Part shown: positions 3 to 21,384 of the stretch, one piece after another
Position numbering within the stretch: position 1 is the stretch's first letter
Layout: every line of letters begins with the position of its first letter
Source of the DNA: a virus
DNA length: 21,384 nucleotides
Strand: one strand, 5' to 3'
IMG/VR virus record: IMGVR_UViG_3300046090_000008
Location: 1-21,384 of that record
The notes under the pieces: model-generated
What the model saw: only the letters and a program-made list of their open reading frames with translations
The model's database searches: none
Told to the model about the DNA's origin: nothing
Made by a program: the position numbers and the translations under genes

Positions 3-218
3 CTGACACCACAAGAGCGCTTGCACTTACTGGAGACCTTGAGGCAGACGGAAGCGAGGGAATGGGTACAGAGATACCGCAAGAAAGCGAGAGACCTTGG
101 GAAAATCAAAGCATCGGCATGGTGGTGGCAGGTTTACTCAGATATAGAGAAGCGGCGTGGAACAACGGCAGCCAACGATTTGCGGAGAAGAATGAATGAG
201 ATACGCGGCGCGAGTTGA
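3..218 (+). CDS. Small phage protein, 5'-truncated (DUF7696-like?)
   Basis: The reading frame is open from the first bases of the window, so the true start lies upstream; a TTG at 21 is possible but has no reason to be the start. The visible 71 residues are highly charged and mostly helical, with a Trp-rich stretch (ASAWWWQVYSDIEKRRG) followed by a basic C-terminus. This pattern resembles small proteins often found near phage recombination genes (DUF7696 is my best guess from memory). No catalytic motif is visible. Its last 23 bases overlap the start of the VRR-NUC gene, so the two are probably translationally coupled. Function unknown. Confidence 0.6.
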   Translation: MTPQERLHLLETLRQTEAREWVQRYRKKARDLGKIKASAWWWQVYSDIEKRRGTTAANDLRRRMNEIRGAS

Positions 219-462
219 CGCAAACCAAGATCAAATAGTGGTTGCATTGCGAGCTGCTGGCGCTTATGTGTGGATCATCGGCTTGCCAGTTGATCTTTTA
301 GTTGGCTACAAGGGTCACACATTCTTGGTGGAGATTAAAACAGACGCTAGGAAGCGTTTAACAGTCCTACAGCGGGATTTTTTTGAAAATTGGGGCGGGG
401 GTACATTGGCGCGGGTTGATAGCCCTGACGCGGCTTTACGCATGATTAGAGTATTAAAGTGA
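196..462 (+). CDS. VRR-NUC domain nuclease
   Basis: A stand-alone VRR-NUC (PD-(D/E)xK superfamily) protein of 88 residues, the usual size for phage members. The nuclease core is visible: PVD with Asp33, then FLVEIKTD with Glu46 and Lys48, then a helix carrying Gln59 (LQRDFF), which matches the D...ExK...Q pattern of the family. Such phage enzymes are thought to act on branched or structured DNA in recombination or packaging, much like Holliday-junction nucleases; the substrate here is inferred. The ATG at 196 lies inside the end of the upstream gene, and its TGA stop overlaps the GTG start of the next gene (GTGA). The neighbouring zinc-ribbon and HNH-type genes fit a DNA-processing block. Confidence 0.85.
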   Translation: MRYAARVDANQDQIVVALRAAGAYVWIIGLPVDLLVGYKGHTFLVEIKTDARKRLTVLQRDFFENWGGGTLARVDSPDAALRMIRVLK

Positions 463-1310
463 ATTCTTACAAAATAACTGGGCCAACGTGCATTAGCTTT
501 AGCGGTGGGCGCACAAGTGCTTATATGTTATATAAAGTATTAGAAGCTGGGGGGGGGCAACTACCTAGCGAGGCAAAAGTGATATTTTGTAATACAGGTA
601 AAGAAGAAGAATCTACTTTGAAATTTGTGAATGATTGTTCAATGCATTGGAATGTTGAAATTACGTGGCTAGAGTTTGCTGTTGTGAATGATTTAAAAAT
701 TCCAAAAGTTGTTAATTACCAAACCGCCAGCAGAAATGGCGAACCTTTTGAAGCGGTAATTAAATGGTTTGAGCCTACTTTGCCAAATGGCAGGGCTAGA
801 TATTGTTCAAGCCAAATGAAAACAAGAACAATGCACCGTCATTTAAAGTCACTTGGTTGGGAAGATTGGGATTCTTTTATTGGCATAAGGGCCGATGAAC
901 CAAGGCGAGTGGCTAAATTTCGCGCCAATCCACATCCTGAAAACAAACATGAAACGGTTTTTATGCCGCTTGTGCCTGACAATGTTTCATCTAAAGAAGT
1001 AGGTGACTTTTGGGCAAATCAAACTTTTGATCTTGGTTTACCAAATATGAATGGCAAAACCATGCATGGAAATTGTGATTTATGTATGTTGAAGCCTAAA
1101 TCTCAAATTTTGAGCTTAATTCAAGAAAAGCCTGAAAGGGCGCTTTGGTGGATAAAACAAGAAGAACAAGCTGCTACAAGATGCCACGGCGATGGAAGAT
1201 TTTTTGCCATTGACCGCCCAAGCTACGCCCAAATGCATAAATATGCAGCGGAACAAACTGATATGTTTGATTCAAACGAAGAAGCAATTTCATGTTTTTG
1301 TGGAGATTAA
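459..1310 (+). CDS. PP-loop ATPase, PAPS-reductase/DndC-like
   Basis: An adenine-nucleotide alpha-hydrolase (PP-loop) protein of 283 residues. The PP-loop is SGGRTS at residues 15-20, followed by the family signature FCNTGKEEESTLKFV (43-57). The ECGLH-type catalytic motif of true PAPS reductases is not visible. Instead there are Cys116, a CDLC pair (206/209) and a C-terminal CFCGD (279/281), which could hold an Fe-S cluster or zinc as in DndC- or TtcA-like enzymes (inference). A role in nucleic-acid sulfur modification or adenylation is therefore as plausible as sulfate reduction. The start is GTG, overlapping the previous stop. The gene is markedly AT-rich compared with its neighbours (17 G+C of 60 at 601-660, against 35 of 60 at 1321-1380), which suggests separate acquisition. 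Confidence 0.85.
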   Translation: MNSYKITGPTCISFSGGRTSAYMLYKVLEAGGGQLPSEAKVIFCNTGKEEESTLKFVNDCSMHWNVEITWLEFAVVNDLKIPKVVNYQTASRNGEPFEAVIKWFEPTLPNGRARYCSSQMKTRTMHRHLKSLGWEDWDSFIGIRADEPRRVAKFRANPHPENKHETVFMPLVPDNVSSKEVGDFWANQTFDLGLPNMNGKTMHGNCDLCMLKPKSQILSLIQEKPERALWWIKQEEQAATRCHGDGRFFAIDRPSYAQMHKYAAEQTDMFDSNEEAISCFCGD

Positions 1311-1640
1311 ATGAAACCTGAAGAAGCGGCGCAAGCCATCAGAGACAAAGCCCCAGCCTACGGCGAAGCCAAAGCCCAAAGGGTTTACCTTGAGGAATTC
1401 CGCAAAAGCCAAAAAGCCTTACTGATGAAAGATGCCTTAGAAATGGGCTTTGAGGCGGCAAACGCACAAGAAAGGGAAGCCTATGCAGACCCTGTTTATG
1501 CCAAGCTGTTAAGGGGATTGGCTGCGGCAATAGAAAAAGAAGAAACCCTCAAATGGGAGATCGAGGCGGCAAGGCTTGACATTGAAATTTGGCGTACCCG
1601 CGAAGCCACCAACCGAATGCAGGACAAGGCGCACCAATGA
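1311..1640 (+). CDS. Conserved phage hypothetical protein, helical
   Basis: A 109-residue, highly charged and probably all-helical protein that starts directly after the previous stop. Features are EAKAQRVYLEEFRKSQKALLM near the N-terminus, AQEREAYADPVY in the middle and IEIWRTREATNRMQ at the C-terminus. I recognise this arrangement from phage genomes, where such proteins sit beside recombination or single-strand-binding genes, but I know no demonstrated function. No metal-binding or nucleotide-binding motif is visible. The stop overlaps the ATG of the zinc-ribbon gene (ATGA at 1637-1640). Confidence 0.75.
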   Translation: MKPEEAAQAIRDKAPAYGEAKAQRVYLEEFRKSQKALLMKDALEMGFEAANAQEREAYADPVYAKLLRGLAAAIEKEETLKWEIEAARLDIEIWRTREATNRMQDKAHQ

Positions 1641-1822
1641 AATGTCCCGAATGCGGGACTTGGACTATCGTAAAAGAAACGAGAACTTCAACAGGAAACA
1701 CACGCAGGCGGCGCTTGGAATGCGCCAACAAACACAGATTTACCACATTGGAGACAATAATTGTTTCAAAAACACCAGTACGTCAGAAGCAAAAAACTTC
1801 TAAAGCTGGTGGCGGGACTTGA
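1637..1822 (+). CDS. NrdR-like zinc-ribbon protein
   Basis: The ATG at 1637 overlaps the preceding stop (ATGA) and gives a 61-residue protein beginning MKCPECGTWT. An in-frame upstream start at 1589 would add a stretch overlapping the previous gene and is not needed. CxxC (Cys3, Cys6) followed by RRRRLECANKHRFTTLE (Cys29, His33) closely resembles the N-terminal zinc ribbon of NrdR, with the second ligand pair changed to CxxxH. The ATP-cone domain of NrdR is absent, so this is a lone ribbon, probably a small DNA-binding or protein-binding factor. The basic tail (VRQKQKTSKAG) fits nucleic-acid binding. Its last 62 bases overlap the next gene. Confidence 0.75.
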   Translation: MKCPECGTWTIVKETRTSTGNTRRRRLECANKHRFTTLETIIVSKTPVRQKQKTSKAGGGT

Positions 1823-2114
1823 TTGCCAAGCCTGCGGGTCGGGCAATATGGTGCAGGCAGCTCACACTAATTGGGGTGGCGGTAAGGGTCGGGGGGTCAA
1901 AGCTGACGATAATTTAGTGGCGGCTTTATGCCTGAAATGCCATTACGAAATTGATCAGGGCAAAGAGTTAAGCAAAGAGGAACGGCAAGAAAAGTGGCAT
2001 CATGCCCACATAGCCACAGTTGCAAAACTTTTTAATGATGGCAATTGGCCTGTTGACGTACCCATTCCTGCGTTTACAATAGATGTGCAGTTGTCTCATT
2101 CGCAGGGGCATTGA
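1761..2114 (+). CDS. HNH-type zinc nuclease-like protein
   Basis: A 117-residue protein with a treble-clef/HNH-like arrangement: CQAC (22/25), AAHTNWGGGKG with His35, then CLKCHYEID (Cys57, Cys60, His61, Asp65). I recognise this family from phage recombination regions, where it sits near Nin-type or DUF1364/DUF968-like proteins. Nuclease activity is likely but not proven by sequence alone. The TTG start at 1761 is chosen because the resulting N-terminus (MFQKHQYVRSKKLL) matches the usual start of the family; the cost is a 62-base overlap with the zinc-ribbon gene. A GTG at 1809 is the alternative. The stop codon lies in the loop of the terminator hairpin at 2102-2128. Confidence 0.7.
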   Translation: MFQKHQYVRSKKLLKLVAGLDCQACGSGNMVQAAHTNWGGGKGRGVKADDNLVAALCLKCHYEIDQGKELSKEERQEKWHHAHIATVAKLFNDGNWPVDVPIPAFTIDVQLSHSQGH

Positions 2115-11994: not shown

Positions 11995-13626
11995 ATGAGT
12001 TCTTTGCCTTTAAAAATTACTGGTAAATGTGTCGCAGAAGATGAGACATTGTTTGCCAATATGGATGCGGCAATTGCTAGAGGTTACCCACAGGTAAAAG
12101 AAGCGCAACCGATAAAGACCGGTGCGATCCTGTTGGTGGCAAGCGCCCCAAGTGTTAAGGGTCAGCTAGAGCTTATTAAAAAGATGAAAGCGGCAGGGTC
12201 GCCCATTGTGGCGATTAAGGGCGCACACGATTGGTTAATTGATAACGGCGTAATGCCTGACTACGCATTAGCCATCGACCCACAAGAGCACAGGATAGCG
12301 TTTTACAAACCGCAGCCAACTGTGCATTACATGATTGCAAGCCAATGCCATCCAGCAATGTTTGACAACCTAGATGGGTATCAGGTCACGCTATGGCATC
12401 CATACGTTAAAAAGGGGCAAGATCGCCCTAAAAACTCCATGCTAATAGGTGGGGGTACAACCTCGGGGTTAAGGGCTATATCTTTGTTCTACGTCCTTGG
12501 CTACCGTCAGTTTGAGCTGTTTGGCTTTGACTCATGCAATGACGGCGAGCTGCTGAGAGTTAATGGCGAGGGGCTAAAGTATGGGGACAAGCTGATTGAG
12601 GTCAAGATTGACCCACAAGGCGAGACCTTTTATTGCAATACAGCAATGGCGTTGCAAGCCGAGCACTTCCAAACCTATTACGATTATTTGCCTGATGCCG
12701 TATTTAATGGGCATGGGCATGGACTGATCCAAGCCATCATCAACAAGCGCGGACAAAACATGATGGAGCTCGGCGGCATTATTGACGGTAAGTTTGAGCT
12801 GAACGACAAAACATCATTCATCCATTTTGGCAACAAAACGGCAGCGAGCTGGCGCTACCGAGCCAAGATACCTGCGGGGGATTGGGCAAGCCAAAACGAT
12901 CTAACCGCTGACACGCTGATATTTGCCAAACCGCAAGCCAATGAGCTAATGGTGATGGCAAGGGCTAAAGCCCGAGGCGCTTGGGTGGTGGTGGACTTTT
13001 GTGATGACCATTTTGATTGGATGCACTACCAAGAGGCACTACGCCTTGCGGACGCGGTGACCTGCCCAACTACCGAGATGGCTAAAAGAATTAAAGAGCT
13101 AGGGCGGGATGCTACTGTCATCCCTGACCCTTATGAGTACCCCGAGATGCCACCGCATTGCAATGGGGTCAATTTGCTATGGTATGGGCATCATGTCAAC
13201 CGTGAGAGCCTTAAACGCATACTGCCTGATCTTGAGGGTTATCCCTTGCGGGTGGTGTCTAATTTTGATGGGGCAATCCCTTGGTCTAAAGAAACCATGT
13301 TGGAAGAATTTGCCCAAGCCGATATAGTGGTGATCCCTGCCACAGCTCCTTACAAGAGCGCAAACAGGGCAATTGAGGCAATTCGCCAAGGGTGTTTTGT
13401 GGTTGCAGAGCCGCATCCAGCCTTAGAGGGTTTTCCCATTTACATCGGCAACATCAAAGAGGGCATCGAATGGACAAAACAGCAGAACATGAACGAACTT
13501 ATATCCAAGGCGCAGAAGTTCGTGATGGCAGAATTCTCGCCTCAAATACTGATCGACAAGTGGAAGACCGCTACGAGACGGCTTACAACCTTGGATGCGG
13601 AAAAAAGAAATGGGACGGTTGGATAA
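11995..13626 (+). CDS. DUF115/MptE-like and glycosyltransferase fusion
   Basis: A 543-residue two-domain protein. Residues about 40-255 form a Rossmann-like DUF115 (MptE-like) domain: LLVASAPSVKG (46-56), AIKGAHDWLIDNGVMPDYAL (73-92), AIDP, IGGGTTSG (151-158) and FGFDSC (176-181). Residues about 265-530 look like a GT-B glycosyltransferase: ADTLIFAKPQ, VVVDFCDDHFDW, a hinge VIPDPYEYPE, LLWYGHHVNRESL and the donor-site helix ANRAIEAIRQGCFVVAEPHP. DUF115 is the core domain of Maf proteins that glycosylate flagellin with nonulosonic acids in bacteria; by analogy this protein may modify a phage or host protein, but the substrate is unknown. The ATG follows the terminator T-tract by one base. Confidence 0.75.
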   Translation: MSSLPLKITGKCVAEDETLFANMDAAIARGYPQVKEAQPIKTGAILLVASAPSVKGQLELIKKMKAAGSPIVAIKGAHDWLIDNGVMPDYALAIDPQEHRIAFYKPQPTVHYMIASQCHPAMFDNLDGYQVTLWHPYVKKGQDRPKNSMLIGGGTTSGLRAISLFYVLGYRQFELFGFDSCNDGELLRVNGEGLKYGDKLIEVKIDPQGETFYCNTAMALQAEHFQTYYDYLPDAVFNGHGHGLIQAIINKRGQNMMELGGIIDGKFELNDKTSFIHFGNKTAASWRYRAKIPAGDWASQNDLTADTLIFAKPQANELMVMARAKARGAWVVVDFCDDHFDWMHYQEALRLADAVTCPTTEMAKRIKELGRDATVIPDPYEYPEMPPHCNGVNLLWYGHHVNRESLKRILPDLEGYPLRVVSNFDGAIPWSKETMLEEFAQADIVVIPATAPYKSANRAIEAIRQGCFVVAEPHPALEGFPIYIGNIKEGIEWTKQQNMNELISKAQKFVMAEFSPQILIDKWKTATRRLTTLDAEKRNGTVG

Positions 13627-14072
13627 ACGTAGACCTGCATTCTGATATTTCCGACATCCAATGCGATCTAAGGAAACTTGAGTTGGCAACCGACTCAGCC
13701 GATGCGGTAGCGGCAATCCACGTTTTAGAGCACTTTTACGAGTGGGAGGTTTACGACCTACTGAGTGAGTGGAAGAGGGTGCTAAAGCCTGGCGGCAAGA
13801 TGATCCTAGAGCTTCCCTGCATGGATAAGGTGTTTGCCTACATTCACAATTGTGTGGTCAACAAACAGCCTTTACAGCCTTTTATGACGACCTATGCCCT
13901 ATGGGGTGACCCTAAGTACAAAGCCGAGTCAATGTGCCATCGGTGGGGTTGGTTTCAAAATCCTTTGCGGGATATGTTGGAAACCGTAGGTATGCAGAAT
14001 ATTACGTTTTGTGAGCCTAGATACCATTTCCCATTTAGAGACATGAGGGTGGAATGCTTAAAGGGGTCTTGA
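13560..14072 (+). CDS. SAM-dependent methyltransferase (class I)
   Basis: A small class I methyltransferase, 170 residues from the GTG at 13560. Motif I is YNLGCGKKKWDGWINVDL (LGCG at 11-14 and the acidic NVDL strand), followed by ADAVAAIHVLEHF and LKPGGKMILELP, the standard order of the Methyltransf_11 type. The start is uncertain. The GTG leaves a 67-base overlap with the glycosyltransferase fusion, and an ATG at 13470 (30 more residues) would overlap it by 157. I prefer the GTG because the upstream gene's C-terminus looks real (EFSPQILIDKW) while the extra residues do not resemble the family. The position inside the sugar cassette suggests methylation of a sugar or its acceptor. Confidence 0.75.
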   Translation: MEDRYETAYNLGCGKKKWDGWINVDLHSDISDIQCDLRKLELATDSADAVAAIHVLEHFYEWEVYDLLSEWKRVLKPGGKMILELPCMDKVFAYIHNCVVNKQPLQPFMTTYALWGDPKYKAESMCHRWGWFQNPLRDMLETVGMQNITFCEPRYHFPFRDMRVECLKGS

Positions 14073-14791
14073 GTAACGTTGAGCGCCATGAGCAGATGGC
14101 AAAAGCGATTCACTTGCCCTTGCTAAAGAAAAAGGGCAAATTCAACGACAGGCGCATGACCATTGCGTGTTACGGCCCAAGCCTTGCAGACACTTGGCGG
14201 CAGCTCAAGCACCCAATCATGACGGTCTCGGGGGCGCATGACTACTTGGTGGAGAGGGGCGTTATTCCTGATTTTCATGTGGACTGCGACCCAAGACCGC
14301 ATAAGGCTGAGATGTTAAGAAAGCCGCAGAAAGAAACCAAGTACCTGATGGCCTCGGTCTGCCATCCAAACTTTTGGGAAACTCTCAAAGGGAAAAATGT
14401 TAAGGTATGGCATTTGGTGAATGGGGATGATTTTGAGACGGTGGCATGGGTTGCCCAGCACCACCCCGAGGGAATGGGAAGCCTGATTGGGGGCGGTTCA
14501 AGTGTGGGCATGAGGGCAATGAATGTTTCGGCGGCTTTAGGGTTTCGCCGGTTTGACATTCACGGCATGGATTGTTCATTTACAAATAACCGCCACGCAG
14601 GTGCTCATACTGGCAAAGATCAAGTTAAAATCATGGTCAATGTTGGTTTGAGAACTTTCCAAACGACACAGCAGATGCTCCAAGCGGCGATTGAAATGGA
14701 AAAATTCATAGAGACGCAGGACGCAGAAGTGGTGTTTTATGGCGATGGTCTAATGCAGGAAACTGCTTTCAAACTCAAGGAATTAGCATGA
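14054..14791 (+). CDS. DUF115/MptE-like Rossmann protein
   Basis: A 245-residue paralogue of the N-terminal domain of the fusion protein at 11995. The same ordered landmarks appear: YGPSL (40-44), VSGAHDYLVERGVIPDFHVD (58-77), CDP, YLMASVCHPNFWETL, IGGGSSVG (145-152) and IHGMDCSF (169-176). No glycosyltransferase domain is attached. DUF115 proteins bind a nucleotide or pterin-like diphosphate ligand and include Maf glycosyltransferases, so an accessory or second transferase role is plausible (inference). The ATG at 14054 overlaps the methyltransferase by 19 bases; a TTG at 14069 behind AAGGGG is an alternative. The stop overlaps the next ATG. Confidence 0.75.
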   Translation: MLKGVLSNVERHEQMAKAIHLPLLKKKGKFNDRRMTIACYGPSLADTWRQLKHPIMTVSGAHDYLVERGVIPDFHVDCDPRPHKAEMLRKPQKETKYLMASVCHPNFWETLKGKNVKVWHLVNGDDFETVAWVAQHHPEGMGSLIGGGSSVGMRAMNVSAALGFRRFDIHGMDCSFTNNRHAGAHTGKDQVKIMVNVGLRTFQTTQQMLQAAIEMEKFIETQDAEVVFYGDGLMQETAFKLKELA

Positions 14792-16737: not shown

Positions 16738-18284
16738 TGCTAAATTCATTTGCCAAGATACCGCGCCAGCAAGCCGCCCAAACGGTGACGGTTGCCGCGC
16801 CTATTGGCGGGTGGAATGCTAGAGATGCTTTGGGGGCAATGGATGCCTTGGACGCGGTGACGTTGCAAAACTTTTGGCCTGGCACTAACTCGGTTATCCT
16901 GAGAAACGGCTACACCAAACACGCCACAGGCTTACCCGCTGAAGTGCAGACGTTGATGGCCTACAGCTCGGGAACGTCAAACAAATTGTTTGCTGTATCT
17001 GATGGCAAGATTTACGATGCCACTAACACCGGTGCGGTGGGTGCGGCGGCTGTAAGTGGTCTTACTAACTCAAAATTTCAATATGTAAACATCACTACAC
17101 CGGCAGCGTCTTATTTGATGGCTGTCAACGGCGCAGACAAGCTCCGCACTTTTGACGGCACAAACTGGCATACCGATGGCGATGGTTCGCCTTATGACAT
17201 CACAAACATTGACACGGCAACGGTCTCAAACATTACGCTGTTTAAAAACCGCATTTGGCTTACAACAAATAACACTTTAAAAGTTTGGTACTTGCCTGTT
17301 AATTCCATCGGCGGCGCGGCGGTTGCGTTAGACATGACCAGTATTTTCCAGCTTGGTGGCTACATCATGGCGGGGATGACTTGGACGCTAGACGCTGGTT
17401 ATGGCGTGGATGATTACTTGGTGTTTATTACAAGCAATGGAGAGGCGCTTGTTTGGCGTTTAACAGACCCAACAACTCCATCAGGTATTTCACAAATTGG
17501 GCTTTATAAAATTGGCGCACCTATTGGCAGGCGTTGTTATACCAAGTTTGGCGGTGATTTATTGGTCATTACTCAAGACGGCGTAGTGCCTATGAGTGGC
17601 TCTTTGCAGTCATCTAGGCTTGACCCGAGGGTGTCTATTACCAACAAGATTCAGTACGCCATGAGTTCGGCTATATCAACCTATGGGGCTAATTTTGGGT
17701 GGCAATTGCTGTACTACCCAAAAGAGAATCAATTGATCTTAAATGTGCCAATTAGCGTAGGTGCTCAACAGCAATATGTGATGAACAACATTACAAAAAG
17801 CTGGTGTAACTTTACCGGTTGGTATGCCAATTGTTGGGAACTACACTTAGATGATCCTTACTTTGGCGGCAATGGGTATGTCGGCAAGGCTTGGAATGGC
17901 AATACCGATGACACCTCCAATATTGAGGGATTTGGGTTACAGAGCTTCCAATCCTATGGCACGGCTTTACAAAAGCAATGCAAGATGATTCGCTATCACC
18001 TCCAAACCAATGGTACGCCTGCGGTATTTGGTAACGTAAACGTAGACTACAACCTTGCTGATGAATCGGCACAACTTAACTTTTCATTAAGCGTTTATGG
18101 CTTATGGGATTCAGGTCTGTGGGGTTCTGCCATTTGGGGTGCTGGGTTAGTGCCAAGCGCTGATTGGCAAGGGGCAACAAATATCGGATATACGTTTGCT
18201 CCGCTGATCAAAACTGCCACGCAAGGCATACAATTGCAATGGGTCGCAACCGATCTAGTGTTTGAGGGTGGCGGGGTACTGTGA
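16737..18284 (+). CDS. Tail hub / DNA-stabilisation-like propeller protein
   Basis: A 515-residue beta-rich protein. The N-terminal GGWNARDALGAMDALDAVTL and QNFWPGTNSVILRNGY are the recognisable start of a phage tail family related to P22 gp10-type packaged-DNA stabilisation proteins and T7-type tail tube proteins. Repeated blade-like units follow (LFAVSDGKIYDAT, LMAVNGADKLRTFDG, LFKNRIWLTTNNTL, LVFITSNGEALVWR, LLVITQDGVVPMSG, GNGYVGKAWNG), fitting a beta-propeller that forms the tail hub closing the DNA channel. The C-terminal part is a Trp-rich beta region (YGLWDSGLWGSAIWGAGL). Start in a TAATG overlap, stop in a GTGA overlap. Confidence 0.8.
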   Translation: MLNSFAKIPRQQAAQTVTVAAPIGGWNARDALGAMDALDAVTLQNFWPGTNSVILRNGYTKHATGLPAEVQTLMAYSSGTSNKLFAVSDGKIYDATNTGAVGAAAVSGLTNSKFQYVNITTPAASYLMAVNGADKLRTFDGTNWHTDGDGSPYDITNIDTATVSNITLFKNRIWLTTNNTLKVWYLPVNSIGGAAVALDMTSIFQLGGYIMAGMTWTLDAGYGVDDYLVFITSNGEALVWRLTDPTTPSGISQIGLYKIGAPIGRRCYTKFGGDLLVITQDGVVPMSGSLQSSRLDPRVSITNKIQYAMSSAISTYGANFGWQLLYYPKENQLILNVPISVGAQQQYVMNNITKSWCNFTGWYANCWELHLDDPYFGGNGYVGKAWNGNTDDTSNIEGFGLQSFQSYGTALQKQCKMIRYHLQTNGTPAVFGNVNVDYNLADESAQLNFSLSVYGLWDSGLWGSAIWGAGLVPSADWQGATNIGYTFAPLIKTATQGIQLQWVATDLVFEGGGVL

Positions 18285-18715
18285 TTTGTACAGATCACGA
18301 GATTGGATACTGGGTTGCAAAAAGGGTCAATGGCGGCTATTTTAAGGAAAGAAGCCAAAGCATTGGTCTGAAAAAAGACGGCAAGATTGTGGCAGGCGTG
18401 ATCTATCAAGACTACAACAACAGATCAATTGTTTGCCATATTGCAATTGACGGTCGGATGACCAAAGATTTTTTATGGGTAATATTTGATTACCCATTTA
18501 AAGTTTGTGAAGTTGAAAAAATCATTGTGCCTGTTGCAAGCGAAAACAAAAAAAGCAACAAAATCGTGACAAACATGGGCTTTACAGAAGAGGCAAGAAT
18601 CAAAGATTGCCACCCTGATGGAGACATCATTCTGTATACGTTAAAACGTGAAGATTGTAGATTTTTAGGGGAAAGATATGGGAAAAGACGCACCATCACC
18701 ACCACCAGCACCTGA
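18281..18715 (+). CDS. GNAT-like acyltransferase
   Basis: A 144-residue protein with a GNAT-type layout: IGLKKDGKIVAGVIYQDYNN (strands beta2-beta4), VCHIAIDGRM, a helix around FLWVIFDYPFKVCEVEKI, then IIVPVASENKKSNKIVTNMG FTEE, where the NKKSNKIVTNMGF part is the familiar helix and strand at the acetyl-CoA site. Such proteins are common next to tail and ejection genes of podoviruses; their substrate is unknown. The GTG start overlaps the tail gene stop. The gene is AT-rich relative to its neighbours (18 G+C of 60 at 18481-18540), and its last 38 bases overlap the next gene. Confidence 0.72.
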   Translation: MICTDHEIGYWVAKRVNGGYFKERSQSIGLKKDGKIVAGVIYQDYNNRSIVCHIAIDGRMTKDFLWVIFDYPFKVCEVEKIIVPVASENKKSNKIVTNMGFTEEARIKDCHPDGDIILYTLKREDCRFLGERYGKRRTITTTST

Positions 18716-19592: not shown

Positions 19593-20627
19593 ATGGCAGA
19601 TATTAATTTAAGCCCTTTAACCGCCGAGCAAGCGGCATTAAACCGCCGCCGCAGAATGGCAGAGGCTATGCAACAGCAGGCTATTTTGCCCATTGATATG
19701 CCAACCGTGCCAGTTAGCCATTATCAAGGTCTTGCCAAGCTATTGCAAGGCTACATTGCGGGTAAAGGTTTAGAACGAGCCGACACCGAGCAAAAAGAAC
19801 TTGAAGCTAACACAATGGCAGACTATGCCAAGATTTATGAGCTTATGGGTCAAACTGAGACTGTGCCTGGCGCTGTAACTTCTCCCGCCGTGCAACCTCA
19901 ACCTATTCTTGAAAATATTGCACAACAAGCAGAATTAGAAAGATTAAGTCAGCCCAAAGCTCTTTTTGAAGCAAAAGCCGCTTATGGTGGAAATCCAATA
20001 TTAGCCAATGCGGAACAGATTAAAACTCTACCAACCATGTCAGAGGCTAAAGCTGAAGAAAGAGCGCCTAGCCAGCAAATTCCCGCGCTTAAAGCCAGTA
20101 TGTTGAAAGACGCTACATTTACACAGACAAACGAAGGTCGCAGAATGTTGGCGCAAGCATTAGTGCAACAACAAGCACAACAACAGGCTGAGGCTATAAG
20201 AAAACGAGAAGCAGAACAAGCAATTGTTAAATTTGGCCCTGAAGATACCGCAGGCAGAATTGTGAACGGCGTGTTTAAGCCAATTGTCACAGGCGTTAAA
20301 CAACCTAAATGGGAAAAATCAAGCCAGTTTGATGTAAATGGGCAAGAGATAACAGGTTGGGTAAATACCAATGCGCCTGACATACCTAGCTCATTTGTAA
20401 AAGGCGCAACAAAGCCCTCAATGACTGAATCGCAGCGTTTAGAGGCTGAACTAAAACTTTATGGAACTGATGTTGAGGCAGCAAAACTTTCTGACGTAGG
20501 AAAAACAGCTCCTGTATTTACGCGGCTACCTAAAGGTGTTCCAGTAGGCGCTAAAAAAGTTGGCACAGATAAAGCAACAGGAAAAGATGTTTATAAATTA
20601 AACAATGACTTATTTGTGGGGGAATAA
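19593..20627 (+). CDS. Probable internal virion / ejection protein
   Basis: A 344-residue Ala/Gln/Glu-rich, mostly helical protein. The ATG at 19593 is preferred to the TTG at 19590 because GGGAG (19582-19586) is 6 bases upstream. Features are LTAEQAALNRRRRMAEAMQQ, a Gly-containing helix YQGLAKLLQGYIAGKGLERA, a coiled and Gln-rich stretch (ALVQQQAQQQAEAIRKREAE) and a C-terminal beta-like part (FTRLPKGVPVGAKKV ... KDVYKLNNDLF). Low complexity and position suggest DNA-ejection cargo; no enzymatic domain is seen. G+C falls within the 3' half. The TAA overlaps the next ATG by one base. Confidence 0.7.
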   Translation: MADINLSPLTAEQAALNRRRRMAEAMQQQAILPIDMPTVPVSHYQGLAKLLQGYIAGKGLERADTEQKELEANTMADYAKIYELMGQTETVPGAVTSPAVQPQPILENIAQQAELERLSQPKALFEAKAAYGGNPILANAEQIKTLPTMSEAKAEERAPSQQIPALKASMLKDATFTQTNEGRRMLAQALVQQQAQQQAEAIRKREAEQAIVKFGPEDTAGRIVNGVFKPIVTGVKQPKWEKSSQFDVNGQEITGWVNTNAPDIPSSFVKGATKPSMTESQRLEAELKLYGTDVEAAKLSDVGKTAPVFTRLPKGVPVGAKKVGTDKATGKDVYKLNNDLFVGE

Positions 20628-21384
20628 TGGGTAAATTTACAGGTGAAGTAATTTATGATGACCCGCAAGCACAAGGTAAACCTGCGGTCAATCCTGCATT
20701 GGTTAAGGCATTAGTGCCACAACCAGCAGTAAACGTTTTATCGCCTCAAGATCAAAGGGCATTTGACTTAGCGGAGGCTAAAAGAAAATCTGATCAAATA
20801 TCAAAAATTGATGAGGAAAATCGAGCTCAAGCGCGAAAACTACAAGAAGAATCTCGGCAAAAAGAAACAAAAAAAGCTGAAGAACAAAGGACAATAAAAT
20901 TAGAAGCTGAAAAAATAGATTTAAAGAAAGCCAAAAATCTTGAAAATTTACCTACGTTAATTAAGAGAGCAAAATCGGTTTTAACAGGTCAATATGTAGA
21001 TGAAACAGGCAAATTAATAAAAACTCCATTACCTACTCAAAGTTTAGGTGGTTCAATTATTGATACTGTGGGTGGATTTGTTGGAAAAACTCCTCAAGGG
21101 GCTGCACCAGCTGACAGATTAAAAGTAATTGGTGGCGCTTTGGTTTTGTCAATGCCCCGCATGGAAGGCCCGCAATCTGATGCCGACACTAAGTTATATA
21201 GAGAAATGGCTGGTAAAGTTGGCGATGATACTGTTTCAATTGAAAGACGGCTTGCTGCTTTGGATGAGGTTGAAAAAATATATTCTAAATACACCCAAAC
21301 TCCTGAATTGGGCAACAAACTACCAGCAGGCGCACCACCTGAAGCTAAACAAGCAAAAGATGGCAATTGGTATTCGCCTGATCC
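20627..21384 (+). CDS. Ejection-type virion protein, 3'-truncated
   Basis: The reading frame starts with ATG in a TAATG overlap and stays open to the end of the window, giving 252 residues of a longer protein. A charged coiled coil (about 45-105, with KIDEENRAQARKLQEESRQK) is followed by LENLPTLIKRAKSVLTGQYV, a Gly-rich turn, and ADRLKVIGGALVLSMPRMEG with PQSDADTKLYREMAGKVGDD. The last motif is typical of podovirus internal virion/DNA-transfer proteins. The sequence ends in DGNWYSPDP, which often opens a C-terminal tail in that family. The gene is AT-rich (15 G+C of 60 at 20881-20940) compared with the head genes. Confidence 0.72.
   Translation, partial: MGKFTGEVIYDDPQAQGKPAVNPALVKALVPQPAVNVLSPQDQRAFDLAEAKRKSDQISKIDEENRAQARKLQEESRQKETKKAEEQRTIKLEAEKIDLKKAKNLENLPTLIKRAKSVLTGQYVDETGKLIKTPLPTQSLGGSIIDTVGGFVGKTPQGAAPADRLKVIGGALVLSMPRMEGPQSDADTKLYREMAGKVGDDTVSIERRLAALDEVEKIYSKYTQTPELGNKLPAGAPPEAKQAKDGNWYSPD

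Follow-up and report, generated by a model that had tools for sequence, protein, structure and literature searches.

The window analyzed here, the whole 21,384-nucleotide stretch of IMG/VR virus record IMGVR_UViG_3300046090_000008, is a contig fragment from a tailed phage, with genes for DNA packaging and for the virion (terminase, portal, major head protein, and tail protein). Its terminase is nearest to those of Rhodoferax phage P26218, Microcystis phage Mvi-Yong1342-1, and Pelagibacter phages (37-43% identity). One of its genes, the ORF 459..1310 on the + strand, codes for a 283-residue PP-loop protein and raises the question of whether it is an enzyme of sulfate assimilation or one that transfers sulfur to nucleic acid.

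The family matches pointed to the first possibility. In a profile search, residues 2-279 matched phrog_424 (1.4e-48), which is labelled PAPS reductase, and PF01507 matched above its cut-off (2.2e-7). A phage PAPS/APS reductase, i.e. a cysH auxiliary metabolic gene product, would use one cysteine of the C-terminal tail to attack the sulfonucleotide and the other to resolve the intermediate. Phage cysH has been so read in print: 167 such genes were counted in 7,334 freshwater phage genomes (PMC10914622), and cysH had the highest station occurrence (65%) among the tabulated viral genes of Baltic Sea sediment (PMC9301287), both being reported as sulfate assimilation. It is also one of the 14 viral metabolic genes that PMC7288430 calls "globally conserved".

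The gene and its base composition

The ORF starts with a GTG that overlaps the TGA of the upstream gene (GTGA), and its end directly precedes the next ATG. Comparison with eight homologues of 78-96% identity gave dN/dS values of 0.045-0.083. This shows purifying selection and hence a functional gene rather than a chance ORF.

The initial annotation, which had correctly placed the ORF, the SGGRTS and FxNTGxE motifs, and the five cysteines discussed below, had also described the gene as more AT-rich than its neighbors and, from this, as probably inserted. The compositional difference was confirmed: the GC content is 39.1% (GC3 29.6%), while the two ORFs beside it have 48.3% and 50.9%. This value lies 10.1 points below the flanks and 2.2 s.d. 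below the mean of the 28 ORFs picked in the window; 2.0% of the record's 852-base windows are equally low, and three other window ORFs have 39.0-40.1% GC. These are 2111-2494 (40.1%), a DUF5856/phrog_858 gene near the same module that is labelled starvation-inducible transcriptional regulator; 18281-18715 (39.8%), an acyl-CoA N-acyltransferase-like gene (phrog_4470); and the last ORF, 20627-21382 (39.0%), whose GC3 of 21% is the lowest of the 28 ORFs measured.

Insertion was not supported. All 27 scored homologous loci of at least 70% identity, some of which are the same or identical contigs, were also AT-richer than their flanks, by a mean of 5.2 points. Over 199 loci, the difference from the flanks averaged -1.9 points and was negative in 140. 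A recent insertion of the window gene thus finds no support, given that the low GC is common to close relatives at about half the size and that the gene is closely packed between its two neighbors. Since it is common to all 27 loci, the AT bias is largely a trait of the gene lineage and gives no insertion date. The neighbors found in the window are only partly common to the closest relatives.

Elsewhere in the window, two MptE-like (PF01973) proteins are encoded amid the structural genes, at 11995-13626 (2.9e-15) and 14054-14791 (2.7e-18), with a methyltransferase-like ORF (13392-14072, phrog_6636) between them.

The NinC family and its cysteines

The phrog_424 family is common in phages and includes NinC of phage lambda (NP_040635), which aligned with the window protein by BLASTP at 26% identity over 213 residues (3e-19). 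By tblastn with a cut-off of 1e-5, 402 of 50,697 phage records contained a relative, in every case at less than 60% identity. One relative detected in this way, gp7 of Erythrobacter phage R6L, is described in PMC5463345 as an auxiliary metabolic gene. The homologues were taken from viral contigs (75 loci), from a second viral scan that gave at least 588 relatives (80 loci taken, 76 of them new), from bacterial genomes (the best 80 of 94 relatives), and from three phage records. Conservation was counted over 235 aligned rows, 212 of them distinct, in which rows with stops, cut ends, or frame breaks were kept and the stops written as X.

The PP-loop, SGGRTS (residues 15-20; 501..518, + strand), has Asp at position 19 (SGG[KR]DS) in DndC and in SspD, the sulfur-transfer protein with which the bacterial SspABCD system introduces phosphorothioate into single-strand DNA. 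In the NinC family, this position was Thr in 192 of 204 distinct rows, Ser in 11, and Gln in 1, and never Asp. The loop is replaced by SMGRSS in two homologues (L026 and L028), which retain the five cysteines. The second motif, FCNTGKE (residues 43-49; 585..605, + strand), keeps Glu49 in 207 of 209 rows. In the alignment, the positions of Glu49 and Glu147 are Glu in the SspD and DndC rows and not Glu in the CysH rows.

The cysteines were compared by motif alignment. Cys116, within RYCSSQMK (804..806, + strand), was kept in 211/211 rows and aligned with the RWCT of SspD and DndC and with the first Cys of the CC pair of APS reductase. The Cys206-x2-Cys209 pair (GNCDLC; 1074..1085, + strand) was kept in 211/211 and 210/211 rows, the only exception at Cys209 being an X (stop) in one row, and aligned with SGCxFC of SspD, GCWxC of DndC, and GCxPC of APS reductase. 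The C-terminal dicysteine tail Cys279-Phe-Cys281 (1293..1301, + strand) was kept in 208/208 and 207/208 rows, the sole row without Cys281 (L233) ending in CFFGD. Other cysteines of the window protein vary in the homologues (Cys11, 95/204; Cys44, 42/209; Cys60, 185/209; Cys242, 31/124). The near-invariance of the five cysteines among the 212 distinct rows bore out the initial annotation, which had named them and had proposed their conservation as a check.

The spacing of the tail cysteines was counted separately. At least two cysteines were present in the last 30 residues of 203 of the 204 complete homologues, with 1 (184 homologues), 2 (2), 3 (12), 4 (1), or 6 (4) residues between the last two. 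This count dropped 6 of 210 distinct rows, with stops (L048, L137, and L149), a cut end (L136), or frame breaks (L063 and L154, by hand); the totals of 212 and 210 distinct rows reflect different definitions of duplicates.

The window protein ends in SCFCGD, without the ECG(I/L)H catalytic tail of CysH. It had been stated beforehand that no PAPS-reductase active-site motif is visible, which is literally true; however, the CFC tail sits at the place of the CysH ECG(L/I)H. Four distant members (L140, L145, L152, and L153) carry ECGLHC there, that is, the CysH ECGLH tail with a second Cys. These members make it probable that the CFC tail corresponds to the catalytic ECGLH tail of CysH; it is likely to correspond to the CxxC of SspD as well. 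The ECGLHC tails would fit sulfonucleotide-reductase chemistry and count in favor of a reductase.

The same five-cysteine plan was found in lambda NinC (C111, C187/C190, C270/C274), Salmonella phage Chi (C113, C199/C202, C278/C282), and Vibrio phage 91E28-1b (C111, C246/C249, C329/C333). Lambda NinC shares SGGRTS, FCT, GNCxxC, and the dicysteine tail with the window protein, although its tail is CxxxC instead of CxC. The gene settings also differ: ninC belongs to the nin region and precedes Q, whereas the window gene lies upstream of the terminase genes. Lambda NinC is reported as non-essential for plaques (PMC10695390), and PMC3224144 counts it among poorly understood proteins and reports that no interaction was found for it. 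Our literature search returned no paper of relevant title joining ninC with SspD, or ninC with "phosphorothio-". The nearest report is of PADLOC SspD and DndC matches in Sinorhizobium prophages, for which verification is asked (PMC12429752).

Placement among SspD, DndC, and CysH

The SspD model of PADLOC matched the window protein (9.3e-16, 56.3 bits), all 32 members of a family set (best 2.5e-20), and all 7 additional NinC-like proteins, lambda NinC among them (1.8e-14). At E 0.01, none of the 11 CysH controls matched it. The family set consisted of 32 rows picked for spread from 76, with L023, L048, and L063 omitted. In contrast, the CysH model TIGR02055 matched 4/32 members (best 0.0067, far under its 235-bit cut-off), and no CysH model matched the window protein up to E 1. 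This difference between the two models argues against a reductase. The DndC model TIGR03183 gave no match to the window protein up to E 1 and matched 4/32 members (best 1.9e-4), and the PRK13795 models ("hypothetical protein") matched up to 25/32 (best 6e-7). BrxP, another phosphorothioation model, matched 20/32 members; it was not discriminating, since all 11 CysH controls matched it too.

We have also compared a profile of 27 chosen NinC-like rows, which were those used in the tree below, with profiles of the reference families by hhalign. Eight of the 42 reference ORFs were omitted from this comparison and from the tree, namely L236-L238 (NinC-like), L266/L268 (duplicates), L261 (fragment), L258 (stop), and L243 (outlier). 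The match to SspD (5 rows) had an E-value of 3.6e-25 and a score of 171 over 242 columns, the "EKPERA" helix and the tail included. An SspD-related family (L249-L251) was matched at 1.1e-15 over 237 columns, nearly the full length; its members have a GGGVNS loop and an IPCxCYD tail. DndC (8 rows) matched at 4.5e-11 with a score of 86 over 129 columns, in the N-terminal part only, and CysH (18 rows) at 1.8e-8 over 187 columns, with the lowest score of those compared (64). The sequence profiles do not support the "PAPS reductase" label. The initial annotation had held the protein to be closer to DndC or tRNA-thiolation enzymes. Its general direction was upheld, the profiles being nearer to DNA-phosphorothioation proteins than to CysH, whereas the nearest protein was SspD and not DndC.

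The likeness to SspD extends to the plan of the protein, with one RxC, one CxxC, a C-terminal dicysteine, and a similar length. All five true SspDs have RWC(T), SGCxFC, and a terminal CxxC, that is, the same five-cysteine plan. On the other hand, the PP-loop of SspD is SGG[KR]DS as opposed to SGGRTS, and no SspA, SspB, or SspC partner was recognized for the window family in the flank comparison described below. The window protein also scored far lower on the SspD model than true SspDs (346-445 bits; 1.8e-112 for one of them), which are rare (5/200 genomes of one phylum at E < 1e-100). One caution is that, at E<=0.001, the SspD model also finds something in 7/14 control genomes, E. coli included; at 1e-20 it finds none. 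In view of the low score, of the Thr/Ser in place of the PP-loop Asp, and of the non-rejecting tree tests described below, the window protein is filed as a member of the NinC family, SspD-like in plan, and not as an SspD.

The other two families are like the window protein in part. DndC has the PP-loop and the RWCT and GCWxC cysteines, but is longer, carries additional cysteines (ECP, and SCG in most DndCs), and lacks a dicysteine tail. CysH has the same fold and a C-terminal tail Cys, and the cluster cysteines of APS reductase stand at matching places. However, APS reductase has a CC pair, GCxPC, and an ECGLH-type tail with one Cys, where the window family has CT or CS in place of CC; this substitution, and Glu49 and Glu147, which are not CysH-like, tell against a reductase. 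In the four rows that score above the PAPS-reductase cut-off, neither CC nor CxxC is present. The CysH-like protein of type IV-B CRISPR, likened here by description, has a PP-motif and a defense or mobile context and is reported as lacking the catalytic Cys (PMC8175902).

An AlphaFold2 model built from 32 sequences predicted a PP-loop fold (mean pLDDT 87.9, pTM 0.86) with a disordered tail (pLDDT < 50 at residues 267-272 and 274-283). The top Foldseek rows were Vibrio vulnificus CysH (6vpu, E 2.3e-6), the PAPS reductase 1sur, and the APS reductase 2goy, followed by LarE, the ATP sulfurylase 1zun, NcsA, and TtuA. The best VIA-align match was 2goy (Z 13.4, rmsd 3.3, 177 residues aligned); other CysH/APS reductases scored 11.9-12.9 and 1zun 12.7, and the highest scores of GMP synthases and LarE were 12.5 and 12.0. 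The leading reductase matches favor the reductase explanation. A clear structural match to assimilatory PAPS reductases had been named beforehand as evidence against a DndC- or thiolation-type enzyme: CysH and APS reductases do lead both lists, but with Z-scores only slightly above those of ATP sulfurylase, GMP synthases, and LarE. Among the rows listed, neither comparison includes a DndC, SspD, or TtcA structure, so that the lists say nothing about those three. The predicted fold places the protein in the PP-loop superfamily and does not separate CysH from SspD/DndC. A sequence search of the PDB gave no PP-loop relative at E<=0.001, with unrelated proteins on top and Vibrio CysH at 0.92 by profile.

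In the tree, the 27 NinC-like rows, lambda NinC on a long branch among them, formed one clade (support 98/93), which was joined with SspD and the SspD-related family at 94/86. AU tests left unrejected the groupings of NinC with CysH (p 0.313), which is again in favor of a reductase, with DndC (p 0.285), and with SspD to the exclusion of the SspD-related family (p 0.125). Given these alternatives, the branching order was not used as proof.

Gene neighborhood and proposed role

The window gene is preceded by a gene for a small nuclease-like protein (196..462, + strand; weak profile match to phrog_93 endonuclease, 2.2e-7), which is probably in the same operon. Immediately downstream is a 109-residue protein without a family match (1311..1640, + strand), whose cluster was found at 38/202 loci. 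An HNH endonuclease of YbcO/DUF968-like type (1761..2114, + strand; phrog_131, 1.7e-24; PF06147 and PF07102 below cut-off) is a neighbor in the same module.

Neighbors were counted over the 202 loci with a called gene, as single-linkage clusters each named from one representative. In raw counts, RusA lay directly upstream of the homologue in 22 loci and the cluster of the window's small nuclease in 19 (41/202 together). A Ref-type nuclease, YbcO/HNH, NinB, RusA, or small nuclease was at most six genes away in 72/202, and a C5 methylase, ParB-methylase, or queuine-transferase-like (phrog_887) gene in 61/202. The phrog_887 gene (e.g. L203:1710-2447), present at this distance in 17/202 loci, is possibly a second nucleic-acid modification enzyme. 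These counts favor a link to a DNA module and are supportive only. The ORF upstream of SspD at the five SspD loci had no match in NinC loci, and no Ssp partner was recognized; when the ORFs of the ~1.5-kb flanks of SspD loci were compared with NinC loci, five matches (8e-10 to 2e-4) came from two unnamed ORFs.

The neighborhood and the hosts bear on the reductase as well. The recurrent neighbors that were identified are replication, recombination, and DNA-modification genes. Moreover, 24 of 26 chosen bacterial genomes carrying a relative matched the APS-reductase model at E<=1e-15, 11 of them over the cut-off; with their own match, a second enzyme of this type would be redundant in such bacteria. 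A PF01507 gene near YbcO, NinB, and Q in Psychrobacter phage Y8A, likened to ours by gene setting and PF01507 listing alone, is reported as a thioredoxin-dependent PAPS reductase (PMC10434257). On balance, we consider it unlikely, at roughly one chance in several, that the window protein is a PAPS/APS reductase.

An enzyme of tRNA or RNA thiolation in the style of TtcA, TtuA, or NcsA would likewise hold a [4Fe-4S] cluster on three cysteines. TtuA and NcsA were indeed among the Foldseek matches (E 1.2e-4 to 8.7e-4; NcsA had a Z-score of 11.0 in VIA-align), and the TilS model touched 6/32 family members (best 7.4e-4). However, these fold scores are under those of CysH, and the SspD profile similarity is much stronger. 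A tRNA gene was present in 15/211 loci and within 2 kb of the homologue in 2/211, although the genes of such enzymes need not adjoin tRNA genes. Against this last point stands the isolate relative of Vibrio phage 91E28-1b (L284), with four tRNA genes near the homologue, an arrangement noted at L284:1968-2295 that is not general among the 211 loci. We regard a tRNA-thiolation enzyme as distinctly unlikely.

A counter-defense decoy, namely a mimic of SspD or DndC that would sequester the host desulfurase or modification complex and so disarm a phosphorothioate-based defense, would be in line with the SspD similarity over the whole length, the unrecognized partner genes, and the SspD-SspA complex reported from pull-down (PMC7188994), but seems improbable, as the conserved five cysteines and PP-loop frame suit an enzyme better and strong SspD matches are rare (5/200 genomes beyond 1e-100) versus a common phage family with at least 588 relatives.

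We propose instead, with moderate confidence and on the sequence comparisons above, that the window protein is a phage NinC-family, stand-alone, SspD-like PP-loop sulfur transferase acting on nucleic acid, and not an assimilatory PAPS reductase. DndC is reported to bind a [4Fe-4S] center through three cysteines and to have a cysteine dyad apart from these (PMC10853773), and SspD forms the above complex with SspA, a desulfurase. By analogy with DndC and SspD, from which we infer every step of the scheme, Cys116, Cys206, and Cys209 would hold a three-cysteine [4Fe-4S] cluster with one iron open. The cluster of APS reductase has four cysteines, the second Cys of its CC pair being Thr/Ser in the NinC family. 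The mobile tail, through Cys279/Cys281, would take up persulfide sulfur, probably supplied by a cysteine desulfurase of the host (IscS, for example). From the tail, the sulfur would travel through the cluster to a nucleic-acid target while nucleotide is bound at the PP-loop. The ATP chemistry of this scheme is unsure because position 19 of the PP-loop is never Asp in the 204 rows. The most likely target would be phage DNA handled by the recombination/replication module, in view of the RusA-type or small nuclease genes that immediately precede the homologue at one locus in five and of the DNA-modification genes close to it at others; RNA or tRNA is kept as the alternative target.

Extended to the family, we suggest tentatively that very many tailed phages, lambda included, may carry a single-gene SspD-like transferase that borrows the host desulfurase and puts sulfur into phage nucleic acid during recombination or replication. 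Phosphorothioate is not known from lambda DNA, which speaks against the proposal. Lambda NinC is an experimentally easy member of the family, with which this question could be addressed in a classic phage, in E. coli, by mass spectrometry. If the suggestion is true, some viral "cysH" genes assigned to sulfate assimilation would be nucleic-acid thiolation genes, and if NinC-family genes belong to the published cysH counts, the reading of those counts would change.
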